Assembly (NCBI GenBank): GCA_913056235.1
Contig: CAJXMW010000001.1
Coordinates: 1,116,001-1,180,000, forward strand
Length of the DNA stretch: 64,000 bases
Source of the DNA: an uncultured Fodinibius sp.
GTDB lineage: Bacteria > Bacteroidota > Rhodothermia > Balneolales > Balneolaceae
Direction: 5' to 3'
In this document: in pieces, positions 2,495 through 20,951 of the stretch
How positions within the stretch are numbered: position 1 is the stretch's first letter
Layout of the letters: each line of letters starts with the position of its first letter
The notes under the pieces: model-generated
The model's input: the letters and a program-made list of their open reading frames with translations, nothing else
Databases searched by the model: none
Told to the model about the DNA's origin: nothing
Translations under genes and position numbers: made by a program

Positions 2495-4498
2495 TTATTC
2501 CCAGTTAAAAGATTTCGGCGAATTTTTTTTGTGAAAAAAAGAAATGATGGTATTTGTCAATATATCATAGCTACCATAGTTTTTCTTAACTATACTATTT
2601 GCGTTAGAAAGTAAGGTGTCACGTTCCTCATCGCTTAGCTTTTTTCCTGTATATACAATAGTGGGAATGGCAGAAAACTGCTCATCACTTTCTATTTGTT
2701 TTAAAAAGTTCAAGCAATCTGTATCACGGATAATATAATCGGTAACAATACAATCAATGCGATTCTCTTTAAGAATCTGATGCGCTTTTTCTATGGTATT
2801 TACTGCTATACAATTGGCAAATGTATAGGAAAGATATTCTTTAACAGCCAAATTATGGACTTCGCTGTCATCAATGACAAGAATAGTTTTGTTTCTATGC
2901 TTCAGTTGTTTGGTGCCGTTGAAGCGGTATTCATCAGTATTTGTATTTTTTTGTTTTGGTATGCTATCTGATAGCTTTTTATAAGCTGGCAGATAAAGCG
3001 TAAAGATAGATCCCTTCCCAACCTCACTTTCAACTTGGAGAACTCCGCCTATTTTTTGTGTTAATTTCTGGCAAATATCTAATCCAAGCCCTGTTCCTTC
3101 TTTCGAATTTTTAGTTCGTTGGTAGCGGCCAAAGATATTATTTAACTGATTCTCTGGTATGCCAATTCCCGTGTCTTTAACTCTAAATGCTACGGCATTG
3201 TCACTGTCGATTTGTATGTTGGCAAGTTCTTGATCTGTAGCTGAAGAGATATCAAGCGTTACACTACCATCGTTCGTAAATTTGAAGGCGTTTGAAAGTA
3301 GGTTTTTTAAAATGCGTTTTACATATGTTTGATTAGTTGATATATAAGACTGCTGCAGGGAGGAAGTTTCGTAATAAAAATCAATTTCATTTCTTTGGGC
3401 TATGGGTTTAAATACTAAATAGAGCTTTTCTCCAAATGAATCCAATTCTAAGGAGTCAGATAATATATCTTTTGATGTTGCCTTATCATTACTTGGATCA
3501 AAAAATTCGTTTATATAATTAAGAAGGTGTTTGCCCGAAAAATTAATGGCTTGTTGAAATTTACCAAATCCCCTTTGAAAGTCTCCCGATTGTTTATCAA
3601 AAAGTAATTTATTGGATAAAATAATTGACTGCAAACTAGTCCGCATATCATGTGCGGCATTTACTAGTAACTCTTCTTTCTGTTTGTGTTTAGCGAGATA
3701 TTTAGCTGCAATTTTTCGCTGTCTTCGAAGTTTGCGCACCTTGTACCAGGATCCGCTTATATTTTTATTTATTGCTAAAATAAACGATTTCTCATCATGG
3801 GTAATTTTATTAAAGTGGATTTCAGCAGGAAAAACGACCCCCATTCCCCGGACAATATTGCTACAAAGAGAAATTGATTCTCGTTGTTCTGTTAAAAGTG
3901 GTTGAATTAAGTTTTCAAATGATGTTCTATTGTATTCAGAATAAATATCTGACGGTGTGACCTTCTCAATGTTAATGTTACGGTATCCTAGATTATCTAT
4001 CGCGGTCTGATTGATGTATTGGCACTTAAGTGTATGGGCATCAAAAACGAAAACACTTTCAGTGCTAAGATTTAGGATATCGGATAGAAGGACTGAAGAG
4101 TTTGTTATAATTTCTTTTTGAGATTTTGACTTCGTTACAGAAAGCTCTCGTTGGAGAATTGTGGGCAGGCGGTATAGTTCTAAAGTAGATACACAATCAT
4201 TTGCCCCTTGATTAACGGCATTTTTATATATTTCATTGGAGAGGTTTGTGGTAAACAGAATAACAGGACTGTTCGGAAAGCGTTTAACAACTTTGGGTAA
4301 TATAGTAAAAGAAGAGGTGGAGGTACCTTCGGAAAGAATGACAGCATCCCAGTAGTTATTATCAATTACCTCCTGGGTAACATCCCCCGGATTCTCCATT
4401 ATCAGATAATCAACCTGAACCCCCTCCATTTCAAGGGATTTGATTATTTGAGAACTGTGGTCCTCCGTAATATTAATAAGAAGTAAGTGTAGTGTCAC
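2495..4498 (-). CDS. Hybrid sensor histidine kinase (pseudo-receiver, PAS, HisKA, HATPase, receiver)
   Basis: 667 aa, cytoplasmic, with no membrane segment. Residues 1-115 look like a receiver fold, but the phosphoacceptor position after the third strand reads AVILSEG with no Asp, so it is a pseudo-receiver. About 130-250 is a PAS domain (ESVFVFDAHTLKCQYINQTA). The H-box AAHDMRTSL places the phosphorylated His at residue 283. The N-box (LLSNAFKF), G1 (VKDTGIGIPENQ) and G2 (GTGLGLDICQKL) are intact. A C-terminal receiver (ILVIDDSEVHN) carries its phosphoacceptor Asp at residue 587 (CIVTDY) and a conserved Lys (VKKN). GTG start. It lies beside the chemotaxis locus but has no visible sigma-28 or sigma-54 site. 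Its stimulus and partner are unknown; it may feed the flagellar activator or one of the single receivers. Confidence 0.85.
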   Translation of the reverse strand: MTLHLLLINITEDHSSQIIKSLEMEGVQVDYLIMENPGDVTQEVIDNNYWDAVILSEGTSTSSFTILPKVVKRFPNSPVILFTTNLSNEIYKNAVNQGANDCVSTLELYRLPTILQRELSVTKSKSQKEIITNSSVLLSDILNLSTESVFVFDAHTLKCQYINQTAIDNLGYRNINIEKVTPSDIYSEYNRTSFENLIQPLLTEQRESISLCSNIVRGMGVVFPAEIHFNKITHDEKSFILAINKNISGSWYKVRKLRRQRKIAAKYLAKHKQKEELLVNAAHDMRTSLQSIILSNKLLFDKQSGDFQRGFGKFQQAINFSGKHLLNYINEFFDPSNDKATSKDILSDSLELDSFGEKLYLVFKPIAQRNEIDFYYETSSLQQSYISTNQTYVKRILKNLLSNAFKFTNDGSVTLDISSATDQELANIQIDSDNAVAFRVKDTGIGIPENQLNNIFGRYQRTKNSKEGTGLGLDICQKLTQKIGGVLQVESEVGKGSIFTLYLPAYKKLSDSIPKQKNTNTDEYRFNGTKQLKHRNKTILVIDDSEVHNLAVKEYLSYTFANCIAVNTIEKAHQILKENRIDCIVTDYIIRDTDCLNFLKQIESDEQFSAIPTIVYTGKKLSDEERDTLLSNANSIVKKNYGSYDILTNTIISFFHKKNSPKSFNWE

Positions 4499-4581: not shown

Positions 4582-4760
4582 ATATCCTTATAATGAAGTA
4601 CCAATAAAAAGCGTTGGTACAACATATCCAAGAATAAATTAATATTTTTTAATATTAATTTTTTTTAATAAATTATTTCTGGAGATAGCTTCCCAAGAAG
4701 AGAAGATTTTCCGGGGTTAAGTACCATAATATTAGGACTAAAAAAGATATACGTTGGTTT

Positions 4761-5183
4761 ATGAGTATAGAGGATACGAACGACGATAGTAGCGACGAAC
4801 CGTCCGAATCAAAATCTGGGAATGCGTTGCAAACCAAATTTAACGAGGAGTTACAATCTGTTTATATCAACAAAAAGAATAGTAATTACGAACAGATTAA
4901 AACGACCTTAGAACTTCAGGAGGAGATTGTTTGCGATAAAATGCACAAGGCTATGTCACCGTTAAGTGCAATTTCTGGATACTTGGAGTTGATGAAAATT
5001 ATGCTTGAGAATGATATGAGCAATGAATCTCTCGAGCGCTATAGAAGTAGGATTGAAGAGGGAATAGGAGAACTTGGCGAAATAGTTGAAGATCTATACG
5101 AAGTTTTTGATGACGGATATCAAAAGAAAGGGTCGGAATTCACGATTGAACTGAGTTCAGATGCCAGTCGACGGGCAAGTTAG
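4761..5183 (+). CDS. Stand-alone histidine-kinase dimerisation (HisKA/DHp-like) protein
   Basis: 140 aa. After an acidic, polar N-terminus of about 35 residues, residues 55-120 form a helical hairpin that looks like a HisKA/DHp domain. KMHKAMSPLSAISGYLELMK matches the H-box with His at residue 62, and IGELGEIVEDLYEVFD matches the second helix. The residue after His is Lys instead of Glu/Asp and the usual Arg is Met, so autokinase function is doubtful. No HATPase domain follows. It could be a phosphotransfer protein, comparable in logic to Spo0B, or a dimerisation partner or decoy for the nearby kinases. ATG start. It converges on the next gene with a 6-base gap. The fold assignment is fairly good; the role is inference. 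Confidence 0.65.
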   Translation: MSIEDTNDDSSDEPSESKSGNALQTKFNEELQSVYINKKNSNYEQIKTTLELQEEIVCDKMHKAMSPLSAISGYLELMKIMLENDMSNESLERYRSRIEEGIGELGEIVEDLYEVFDDGYQKKGSEFTIELSSDASRRAS

Positions 5184-5189
5184 TGGATC

Positions 5190-5636
5190 CTATAACAGTA
5201 TGTCGTACTGTTGGCCCTTAGGATTTTTAAAGAAGTTTACTTGTAAGTCATAAAGGTGCTGGCGCAAGACGTGAATTTTGAGCGCATCAATATCAGAGAT
5301 TAATTCACTTGGGTTGAGATCTCTTTCCAGTAATATTTTAGACTGGAGTAAGGTTAGATTTTTGTGTTCAACTACAAAAAAATGTTCAAATAGATCGCGG
5401 AAATCTTTCTTCGGCATCAAGTGCATGAAGTCCGATTCTCCATTATCATTTCCTCCCGAAGTTATTTGGTGTGATTCCTCATGCCCCCCATTGTCTTTAT
5501 CGTTTTCTTCATCGATATCGGGAAAGTCTTTGACAGGATTAGATTCTGAGTCTGCAACATATTCCTGAATGGGGTGTACTCCTTCCAGAGCCGGGATGGA
5601 AGAAGAAAGAGTTGGTTTTGATGAGCGAGGAAGCAT
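5190..5636 (-). CDS. Hypothetical acidic protein, probably motility-regulated
   Basis: 148 aa, not recognised. The first 70 residues are low-complexity and acidic (DFPDIDEENDKDNGGHEE). Residues 75-148 look like two or three amphipathic helices (KKDFRDLFEHFFVVEHKNL, LISDIDALKIHVLRQHLYD). There is no signal peptide and no membrane segment. A sigma-28-like motif with a 16-base spacer lies 53 bases upstream (5689-5716). That position matches the porin and kinase genes and supports this strand over the overlapping plus ORF at 5278-5568. It sits between the lone DHp protein and cheY, so a link to signalling is possible but unproven. Confidence 0.55.
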   Translation of the reverse strand: MLPRSSKPTLSSSIPALEGVHPIQEYVADSESNPVKDFPDIDEENDKDNGGHEESHQITSGGNDNGESDFMHLMPKKDFRDLFEHFFVVEHKNLTLLQSKILLERDLNPSELISDIDALKIHVLRQHLYDLQVNFFKNPKGQQYDILL

Positions 5637-5910: not shown

Positions 5911-6357
5911 ATGAGTAAAATAAGAGCACTGGTGGTCGACGATTCGAAAATTATGAGGAGTGCTGTAAAGCGTGCACTTAATAATCTAATGTTAGCTGAT
6001 TTTGAATACGTGGAGGCCAAGGACGGTGAAGATGCACTGAATAAATTTAATGAAGATATTGAGATCATGTTTGTTGATTGGAACATGCCTAATATGACAG
6101 GTGTCGAGTTTGCGCAGGCCATCCGGGAGCAGGGCAACGATCACATTCCTATTATAATGGTAACGGCCGAAAAATCTATGGGTAAGGTTGATAAGGCTTT
6201 AAATGAGGGTGGAGCCAATGAGTATGTTACCAAACCATTTACGGCTGATAAAATGCATAAGGCCATCAGCGATTACTTTGATGAAGAAGGTAATATTGCC
6301 AGTGGTGATGATGAGGAAGAAGACAAAAGTTTTTTCAAAGGTATACTAAACTCTTAA
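5911..6357 (+). CDS. cheY: CheY-type response regulator with acidic C-terminal extension
   Basis: 148 aa. A single receiver domain (residues 1-122) has the acidic pair in LVVDDSK, phosphoacceptor Asp56 (MFVDWNMPNMTG), Thr in MVTAE and Lys in VTKPFT. After the domain comes a 25-residue acidic tail (SGDDEEEDKSFFKG) not found in canonical CheY. It is the first gene of the chemotaxis operon, followed 19 bases later by the CheX-type phosphatase gene. It should be phosphorylated by CheA and act on the flagellar switch or on a sorting or adaptation step. With a second cheY at the operon end, which one drives the motor is undecided. Confidence 0.85.
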   Translation: MSKIRALVVDDSKIMRSAVKRALNNLMLADFEYVEAKDGEDALNKFNEDIEIMFVDWNMPNMTGVEFAQAIREQGNDHIPIIMVTAEKSMGKVDKALNEGGANEYVTKPFTADKMHKAISDYFDEEGNIASGDDEEEDKSFFKGILNS

Positions 6358-10870: not shown

Positions 10871-11256
10871 ATGAATATATTAGTTGTAGAAAATAATAGA
10901 ACTAAGGGTAAAGAAATTATACAAGTGCTCCATAAAATGGATTTAAATCTTGAAAATTTATATCAGGTCCATACTGGTAGTAAGGATTAGAAATCCTAAA
11001 AACATATCTGATTGATTTAATGCTTATTGACATAGATATATCAATAATTGGTGGTTTAGAAGTTCTTGGTAAAATGCGCACGGTCCCTGACTGTTCCGAG
11101 GTGCCGACAATTGTGATATCTTCGCGAAGAGATAAGAAATTATTTAATGCTGTTACAAGTAGTGGCCTTGGCTATCTTCATAAGCCATTTAGTTGGCGAA
11201 TGTTGCGACAAAAGATTTTAAAGTTTAAAAATGGCGATGTAGCATATGTCTTATAA
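10871..11256 (+). pseudogene. Frameshifted single-domain receiver (CheY-like)
   Basis: An ATG at 10871 opens MNILVVENNRTKGKE... and runs 39 codons to a TAG at 10988. The receiver continues in another frame from about 10984 as GLEILKTYLIDLMLIDIDIS, through VPTIVISSRRDK and LGYLHKPFSW, ending at 11256. One lost base near 10980 would restore a complete CheY-sized protein. The protein was already diverged: the acidic pair is EN instead of DD, and the MP and DG after the phosphoacceptor Asp are replaced. The 3' end overlaps the next gene by 11 bases, so the reading frame was once part of the operon. It could also be a sequencing error, but the degenerate active site favours decay. Confidence 0.75.
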
Positions 11257-12804: not shown

Positions 12805-13173
12805 ATGGATATTAAAATTTTGGTGGTGGATGATAGTCCAATAATGCGAAAAGTAATTGAGCGAACCTTTAATATCTGTGGTTATGAAAGTACCTCAATA
12901 TTTGAGGCATGTAATGGTGAAGAGGGCCTAGAAATTTTAGATCAGCATTCCATTGATTTGCTTATAGTAGATATCAATATGCCTATCATGGATGGGGTGC
13001 AGATGCTAAAAGAGGTTAAGAAAAAAGATCAGACCAAAGAAATTCCCGTACTCATTATTTCAGCGGAGAGTAATGAAGAGAGAATAGAAAGGTTGAGCCG
13101 TTTTGGTGCAACTTTTATCCACAAACCGTTTACGCCAGAAAAGCTGAAGACAAAAATGGAACAGCTTATCTGA
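12805..13173 (+). CDS. cheY: CheY-type response regulator (canonical length)
   Basis: 122 aa, one receiver domain and nothing else, the size of classical CheY. Acidic pair in VVDDSPIMRK, phosphoacceptor Asp56 (IVDINMPIMDG), Ser in LIISAES, Lys in IHKPFTPEK. It is the last gene of the che operon, just before the sigma-28 promoter of cheW. By length it is the better candidate for the motor-binding CheY. FliM in this window lacks the usual docking peptide, so the contact site is unclear. Confidence 0.87.
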   Translation: MDIKILVVDDSPIMRKVIERTFNICGYESTSIFEACNGEEGLEILDQHSIDLLIVDINMPIMDGVQMLKEVKKKDQTKEIPVLIISAESNEERIERLSRFGATFIHKPFTPEKLKTKMEQLI

Positions 13174-19187: not shown

Positions 19188-19586
19188 ATGAAAATTAATG
19201 TGTTGATTGTTGAAGATGACGCTGCAATGCGGGTCGTCTTAAAGAACACAGTACAATCGGTCGAAATGGATATTGAAATCGGAGAAATTTACGAGGCTGA
19301 AAATGGCAAGGAAGGGATTAAAGCATTAAGAGATAAAGACCCGATAGATTTGATGCTGGTGGATATTTATATGCCAGTTATGGATGGCCTTGATATGCTC
19401 GATTATGTTCATGATCATCCCGACTTTCAACATATCCCGGCTATTGTTGTATCTACTGAAAATGATGAGGAGCGTATTGATGCAATTCTTCGCCAGGGCT
19501 TGGGCTTTGTCCCGAAACCATTGACACATGTATTGTTAAAAGATCAAATTGTGAGTATGGTTGGGGAAAATGTAAGTGAGAAGTAG
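19188..19586 (+). CDS. Single-domain response regulator
   Basis: 132 aa. Receiver with acidic pair EDD (LIVEDDAAMR), phosphoacceptor Asp59 (LVDIYMPVMDG), Ser/Thr in VVSTEND and Lys in VPKPL. It has no output domain. Its sequence is closer in style to the 122-aa CheY than to transcription regulators. It ends the mcp2 transcript, followed by a terminator. A partner could be the kinase on the opposite strand (19879) or the hybrid kinase at 2495. Confidence 0.85.
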   Translation: MKINVLIVEDDAAMRVVLKNTVQSVEMDIEIGEIYEAENGKEGIKALRDKDPIDLMLVDIYMPVMDGLDMLDYVHDHPDFQHIPAIVVSTENDEERIDAILRQGLGFVPKPLTHVLLKDQIVSMVGENVSEK

Positions 19587-19878: not shown

Positions 19879-20880
19879 CTATAACAGAGAAGATGATTGG
19901 TAATCGTTAGATGGTGGTAGACAAAAGAGGAATGAGGTTTCACGAAAAGGATTATTGTCGGTAAGAAAGATTGACCCATAGTACCGTTTGGCATAGAGCA
20001 AAGCCATAGTTAAACCAATTCCTAATTCCCTTGCTTTCGTAGTAACGAAAGGATAAAAGAGTTGGTTGGAAATCGATTCTGGAATAGAATTCCCGGTATG
20101 TGAAATCTTGATGGAATTTTTAGAAGATCGAGAGATTGTTATTTCGTGTTTGTCGGCAGGAGCATATTCCACAGCATTATCAATCAAAAAAGAAAGAATG
20201 CGACGCATGTCTCCTGAATTGCATTGGAGTGGGGCAGAATAGTTTGTTTCCTGGAGGGTGATGTTCTTTTGTACTTTAGCAGGATAGTCAGAAATAATGT
20301 CGTTAATTATTTCTGAGGGTTCTGCTGAAAAGTTGTTTAAATCTATTCGTTTTAGGGGAATCTTTTCCAGATCATCTAAATCATCAAGTAAATTAAAGAG
20401 TTCATCAACCCCTTCAGTAATTTTATCAAGATATTTTTGTGATTCTCCGATATCACTGTTGTCTTCAATCAATTCTGCATACCCTTGAATACCAGTAAGC
20501 GGGGAACGCACCCGATGTAGTAAAAATCCAATCATATTCTTAAGGGATTGCATGACTTCAAAGTCTGGTACCCCTTCGCGGCGTTCGAGCCGTACTTTCA
20601 AGTGTTGGCTTCCTTCCCAAAGAAGTGTTTCCTGTTTTAGTATGAACCATTCTTCATCAAAATATACGGGTGTAATATTTGGACCTGCATTAGGTACAAT
20701 ATGTACTACGTCCATAAGCTCTTTGCCAATAGGATTTTGATTGGCATGCCCTGCAATGGCTGCCTCATTGGCTTCACAAATCTTTTTACTTCCCATCTTT
20801 ATGATGAAGGTAGGATCAGTGCTGTTAAATGGTATCATCCCCGCTGAATTCCCGATGGCACTTTTAGTTTGAAACATCAT
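19879..20880 (-). CDS. PAS-type sensor histidine kinase (FlrB/FleS-like)
   Basis: 333 aa from the ATG at 20880; the track start at 20904 is a TTG. N-terminal PAS-like domain (FIIKMGSKKICEANEAAIAG), then H-box LLHRVRSPLTGIQGYAELI with His122, N-box LSFLIDNAVEY and G2 ELGIGLTMALLYAKR. The G1 box reads SHTGNSIPES, with His where Asp normally contacts adenine, so nucleotide binding may be altered. There is no membrane segment. Size and order match FlrB/FleS kinases, which phosphorylate NtrC-type flagellar activators. Such an activator is encoded at 54435, and the gene lies beside the sigma-54 promoter of flgB. The pairing is inference. A sigma-28-like site lies upstream. Confidence 0.75.
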   Translation of the reverse strand: MMFQTKSAIGNSAGMIPFNSTDPTFIIKMGSKKICEANEAAIAGHANQNPIGKELMDVVHIVPNAGPNITPVYFDEEWFILKQETLLWEGSQHLKVRLERREGVPDFEVMQSLKNMIGFLLHRVRSPLTGIQGYAELIEDNSDIGESQKYLDKITEGVDELFNLLDDLDDLEKIPLKRIDLNNFSAEPSEIINDIISDYPAKVQKNITLQETNYSAPLQCNSGDMRRILSFLIDNAVEYAPADKHEITISRSSKNSIKISHTGNSIPESISNQLFYPFVTTKARELGIGLTMALLYAKRYYGSIFLTDNNPFRETSFLFCLPPSNDYQSSSLL

Positions 20881-20951
20881 AATTAAATGTATTGAGACTA
20901 ACAAAGGAGTGCTCTATAAATATAGAGCTGTTGATCCTTCTATTGACCAAG

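Follow-up and report, generated by a model that had tools for sequence, protein, structure and literature searches.

The locus and its protein

The window, a stretch of 64,000 nucleotides on contig C1 of a 3.97 Mb genome whose closest named relatives among those found belong to Aliifodinibius (now Fodinibius; Balneolota), contains at 4761..5183 (+) an ATG-initiated open reading frame encoding a 140-residue protein with a stand-alone histidine-kinase dimerisation (DHp) domain, identified by its Pfam HisKA match, an AF2-predicted hairpin and its syntenic orthologues. HisKA (PF00512; E=1.8e-5) was the sole domain found in the Pfam scan, its score of 25.2 bits lying slightly below the curated cutoff of 26.9 bits, and neither an HATPase nor an HPt profile matched. 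The N, G1 and G2 boxes are absent, which takes the protein out of the histidine kinases, as does the Lys that follows the H-box His. A convergent gene ends 6 bp past the stop codon, so there is no ATPase remnant downstream; the claim of a DHp domain without an ATPase domain, made in a reading of the sequence alone, is thus borne out. That sequence-only reading also described correctly an H-box (KMHKAMSPLSAISGY, residues 60–74) in which His and Pro are kept and the acidic residue has become Lys. His62 (codon 4944..4946, +) is the presumed phospho-acceptor, and Lys63 (codon 4947..4949, +) replaces the autokinase acid, which is Asp in intact kinases. The replacement of the H-box Arg by Met, also noted there, is no sign of decay, because Met is present in 8/14 intact kinases of the same protein family.

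The gene is flanked by a divergent hybrid kinase (2495..4498, −), in which Pfam recognises a pseudo-receiver, PAS, HisKA, HATPase and a C-terminal receiver, and by the convergent gene (5190..5636, −), which encodes a 148-residue protein and was recognised by genome comparison as a conserved neighbour of the DHp family. This order is shared by the eight genomes of the genus that carry the gene, with cheY-cheX-cheA-cheR-cheD downstream. Between the divergent genes lies an AT-rich block (4637..4676, no strand assigned) that is near-identical in four genomes in a DNA alignment, a candidate for a shared regulatory site; the ATG of the DHp gene and the DNA just upstream of it are also conserved. No Rfam elements were found in the window, and in the neighbourhood of the DHp gene terminator and sigma-70 promoter signals did not exceed those of shuffled sequence.

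The 148-residue protein has a disordered N-terminus, with an ML-RSS start conserved in the genus, and a helical C-terminus; its AF2 model (mean pLDDT 50.8) was too poor for structure search. Its gene is present in 26/129 genomes of the order, beside a DHp-family gene in 21 of these, and accompanies the family through all three of the reduction stages described below.

Conservation and selection

The DHp gene occupies the same position in 8/12 genomes of the window's genus. Among close pairs (the window, G005 and G003) dN/dS is about 0.06–0.11 for the core (residues 44–118), compared with 0.14–0.24 for the N-terminus and 0.39–0.74 for the tail; these ratios are approximate because dS is high, and those for the core indicate strong purifying selection there. 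In the six genus sequences inspected, changes in the His62 codon are synonymous only. A chance open reading frame is excluded by the synteny and dN/dS. A kinase truncated or frameshifted in the assembly only is likewise excluded, since the identical short form occurs in eight genomes and the convergent gene lies 6 bp beyond its stop. Within the otherwise variable tail, the C-terminus of six of the eight bare forms reads (S/N)R(R/K)AS (window 5120–5180 (+), L039, L040, L042, L043, L044), possibly a short binding motif.

A series of reduced kinases

We assembled a family of 42 members, comprising 14 intact, 20 ruined and 8 bare forms; HisKA matched in all 22 members scanned with Pfam. The intact forms, HisKA-HATPase kinases, come chiefly from the order's other families, a few genomes of the window's family also carrying them; all 14 have an HD(L/I)xSP or TP H-box and the N, G1 and G2 boxes in full. 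The ruined forms, of 247–287 residues, retain the DHp domain and an ATPase-like domain from which the G1 Asp and glycines have gone in 20/20; their sources are other genera of the window's family and, in one case, a genome of family f4. The bare forms, all eight of 130–141 residues with the DHp domain only, belong to the window's genus. One correction to the sequence-only reading is that the protein is no isolated fragment but the end point of this traceable reduction series.

Ruined and bare forms together form a single clade (support 100/99 in a tree from all columns), within which the bare forms are nested (98/95). The clade is recovered with support 98/96 from DHp columns only, with the column after the His left out, so the missing domain does not account for the grouping. 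Most of the ruined forms share the window's slot beside cheY; the intact kinases are mostly encoded at other loci, although two of them (family f5) lie within a few kb of cheY and several have the same convergent neighbour. A sample of 395 genomes from the phylum yielded no relatives beyond the order at E<=1e-25. Descent directly from the adjacent hybrid kinase is unsupported, the DHp domain of that kinase lying on a separate tree branch.

On the evidence of these alignments and trees, the bare DHp protein descends from a HisKA-HATPase kinase through stepwise loss of the ATP-using half. Kinase, worn-down and bare forms all survive in related genomes, with the worn-down and bare ones at one locus, and the sequences therefore reveal in which order the losses came: the ATPase, then the autokinase acid, then the entire domain. 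The ancestor would have been an ordinary HisKA-HATPase kinase associated with flagellar/chemotaxis genes, whose ATPase domain decayed in a first step; the Asp next to the His would then have given way to Asn, Gln or Lys, before the whole ATPase domain was deleted in the window's genus.

What was kept and what was lost

The acid after the His is reported to be necessary for autokinase activity only. The residue at this position is Asp in 14/14 intact kinases, Asp (4), Asn (13) or Gln (3) in the 20 ruined forms, and Lys (7) or Asn (1) in the eight bare forms, none of which has an acid (0/8). Such a substitution is by itself no proof that autokinase activity has been lost, because HWE-type kinases have Arg at this position (PMC5898713); the absence of the ATPase domain is. 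His62, Pro67, Ala70, Gly73, Tyr94 and Gly101 are invariant in 42/42 members, and the check for orthologues without the His proposed in the sequence-only reading accordingly found none. All 28 reduced proteins, ruined and bare, thus combine a conserved His with the lack of a working ATPase domain, and the retention of this residue without exception after autokinase loss points to a phosphoryl group arriving from elsewhere.

The invariance of His and Pro also bears on whether the protein may be a relic on its way to loss, or serve as a structural scaffold for which phosphorylation is no longer relevant. Its domains were lost stepwise, as would be expected of a relic, and the gene has gone altogether from one genome of the genus (G011). 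Nevertheless the low core dN/dS and the retention of the gene in eight of the nine cheA-bearing genomes of the genus speak against decay, and we regard this explanation as very improbable.

AF2 modelling of a single chain, from an alignment of three sequences only, predicts helices at residues 43–83 and 88–139 folded as a hairpin; from this three-sequence alignment pLDDT is about 77–87 over residues 51–110, with a mean of 64.5 for the whole protein. The top PDB matches in Foldseek were the DHp domains of Thermotoga maritima HK853, with probability 1.00 but E 0.08. Two hairpins should pair as a four-helix-bundle homodimer.

A presumed donor

The ATPase boxes of the divergent hybrid kinase are intact, and its C-terminal receiver keeps the acidic pair, phospho-Asp, Thr/Ser and Lys in 8/8 genus orthologues. 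The N-terminal receiver (125 residues) has lost its phospho-Asp in the window's genus; the Asp is kept in more distant kinases occupying the same slot (L045, L047, L051). A Gly follows the receiver Thr/Ser in 10/11 aligned hybrid-kinase proteins, giving a faint likeness to the FATGUY motif that marks intermediary receivers (PMC9981736), which we take only as a hint.

Within the genus the hybrid kinase is found in exactly the eight genomes that carry the DHp gene, and in all eight the two genes are head-to-head. In G011 (L112) both are gone and the che genes and convergent gene remain, a co-loss in a che-positive genome that represents a single event. At the G011 locus (about 7011–7183 of L112) the convergent gene and a porin gene are separated by about 170 bp, a natural double deletion. 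Among loci with ruined forms a hybrid kinase adjoins in most of those inspected, the exceptions being L048, L098 and genus g5. The adjacent kinase has no C-terminal receiver in L048, L098, L055, L101 and L102, and the donor is therefore not constant across the whole family. In the window's genus the distribution and arrangement of the hybrid kinase make it the presumed phosphoryl donor to the DHp protein.

A second HisKA protein in the window (19879..20904, −), which adjoins flgB in the flagellar cluster, had been proposed as a heterodimer partner. It is unlikely to be an active one, because HRxRSP stands in place of HD/HE and the G1 Asp is absent in 15/15 orthologues. Its N-box Asn-Ala and G2 GIGLT mostly survive, and the sequence suggests a further kinase-derived protein that is either inactive or PhyT-like. 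These observations bear on the possibility that the DHp protein acts as half a kinase, forming a heterodimer with a neighbouring kinase and thereby regulating it, or being phosphorylated in trans by another ATPase domain. DHp domains naturally dimerise and two HisKA proteins are encoded near the gene, but the apparent inactivity of the one and the distance in the tree between the DHp protein and the DHp domain of the other argue against pairing, and replacement of the autokinase acid speaks against phosphorylation in trans by an ATPase domain. Overall we judge a role of this kind improbable.

Receivers and the flagellar setting

Three single receivers with Pfam Response_reg matches are encoded on the forward strand at 5911..6357, 12805..13173 and 19188..19586. 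The first, which is CheY-like, is the receiver nearest to the DHp gene and its most constant, being a neighbour at all loci with bare forms and at most of those with ruined forms. Going by this proximity, our guess is that it is the most likely phosphoryl acceptor, the other two being alternatives. A further receiver gene, at 10871–11256 (+), is broken by a frameshift, with 39 codons to a stop followed by an out-of-frame continuation; its orthologues in L038 and L039 are intact at 130 residues.

The association of the family with motility extends beyond the window. Among genomes of the order fliF is present in 43/44 with a DHp-family member compared to 10/85 without (Fisher p about 2e-23, uncorrected for shared ancestry), and in the window's family bare or ruined forms occur in 21/22 genomes with this cheA compared to 6/70 others, several of these latter genomes being fragmented.

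Proximity to cheY would also suit a phosphate drain, in which the DHp protein strips phosphoryl groups from CheY or from the hybrid-kinase receiver, via His62 or a DHp-guided water, and so lowers the signal. The phosphatase activity of HisKA kinases is independent of the acid (PMC3510030), and Spo0B-type transfer is reversible (PMC5898713). However, the position four residues after the His, where HisKA phosphatases have Thr or Asn, is Ser in this protein, with Thr in one member only, and the chemotaxis cluster already includes two CheX phosphatase genes identified by Pfam. A drain is in our view unlikely.

A putative phosphotransferase

Since the ATP-using half has been lost and the phosphate-carrying His kept, a relay of phosphate between other signalling proteins is the most likely role. 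The sequence-only reading offered either a phosphorelay node or a dominant regulator of the nearby kinases. The first of these is well supported on comparative grounds by the His in 28/28 reduced proteins, the loss of the acid, the decay of the ATPase domain before its disappearance and the hybrid kinase with its intact C-terminal receiver, always head-to-head in the genus. We found no positive evidence for the second, which alone leaves unexplained why the His never changes. We therefore consider the protein to be probably a histidine phosphotransferase of Spo0B/ChpT-like kind and independent origin, carrying phosphate from the hybrid kinase to one of the receivers in the chemotaxis cluster.

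Under this proposal, two hairpins would pair into a four-helix bundle, in which His62 would be phosphorylated by the intact receiver at the C-terminus of the hybrid kinase (2495–4498) and would pass the group on, reversibly, to one of the single receivers in the chemotaxis cluster, the CheY at 5911 being the likeliest. The sensor of the hybrid kinase would thereby gain a route into flagellar control beside CheA, following the logic of CckA-ChpT-CpdR. It is possible, though we advance it only tentatively, that the full scheme holds: a phosphotransferase consisting of a DHp hairpin only, derived from a stepwise-reduced kinase of a flagellar/chemotaxis locus with all stages extant in one order, and bringing a second input, from the hybrid kinase, to CheY independently of CheA, with two types of kinase converging on the flagellar motor. 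Should transfer indeed occur, the protein would represent a minimal phosphotransferase that carries no catalytic-type domain at all, and the chemotaxis machinery of Balneolota would have a second source of phosphoryl groups.

Comparison with known phosphotransferases

Our searches of the open-access literature turned up neither an account of a DHp-only phosphotransferase, an absence that argues only weakly for novelty, nor a paper on chemotaxis, flagella and histidine kinases in Balneola. The general idea has precedents. Spo0B, ChpT and other dimeric phosphotransferases are regarded as kinases that have worn down, and the authors of the PhyT study already suspected that phosphotransferases arise from kinases through decay of the catalytic domain (PMC5898713).

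One close counterpart is ChpT of Caulobacter and Brucella (PF10090), which has a DHp hairpin with a phosphoryl-shuttling His in a kinase-derived architecture and works with a hybrid kinase whose receiver is C-terminal (PMC3433190, PMC9981736); the ruined relatives, with their degenerate ATPase domain, are similar to it in architecture. ChpT nevertheless retains a degenerate C-terminal Bergerat-like domain, whereas the window protein has none and comes from an independent lineage in Balneolales. PF10090 (HPTransfase C-terminal domain) gave no match to it and a weak match to one family member (E 0.032). With Spo0B of Bacillus sporulation (PF14689) it shares the logic of a two-helix hairpin dimer and of relay between receivers, but it is of HisKA ancestry and without a C-terminal domain; PF14689 (SpoOB-type helical domain) did not match the window protein and matched two other members weakly (best E 0.034). 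PhyT/PhyP of the alphaproteobacterial general stress response is also kinase-derived, with a degenerate ATPase domain, and acts as a phosphotransferase between receivers (PMC5898713). PhyT is, however, membrane-anchored, of HWE/HisKA_2 type and marked by HRxxN; the window protein is soluble, of HisKA type and lacks the ATPase domain. Monomeric HPt proteins are similarly small, ATP-less His carriers between receivers, but are usually monomeric four-helix bundles (PMC3433190), in contrast to the two-helix DHp hairpin with a HisKA origin described here. The new elements are the chemotaxis setting and a separate case from another phylum, complete with intermediates, in which the domain was finally lost altogether.
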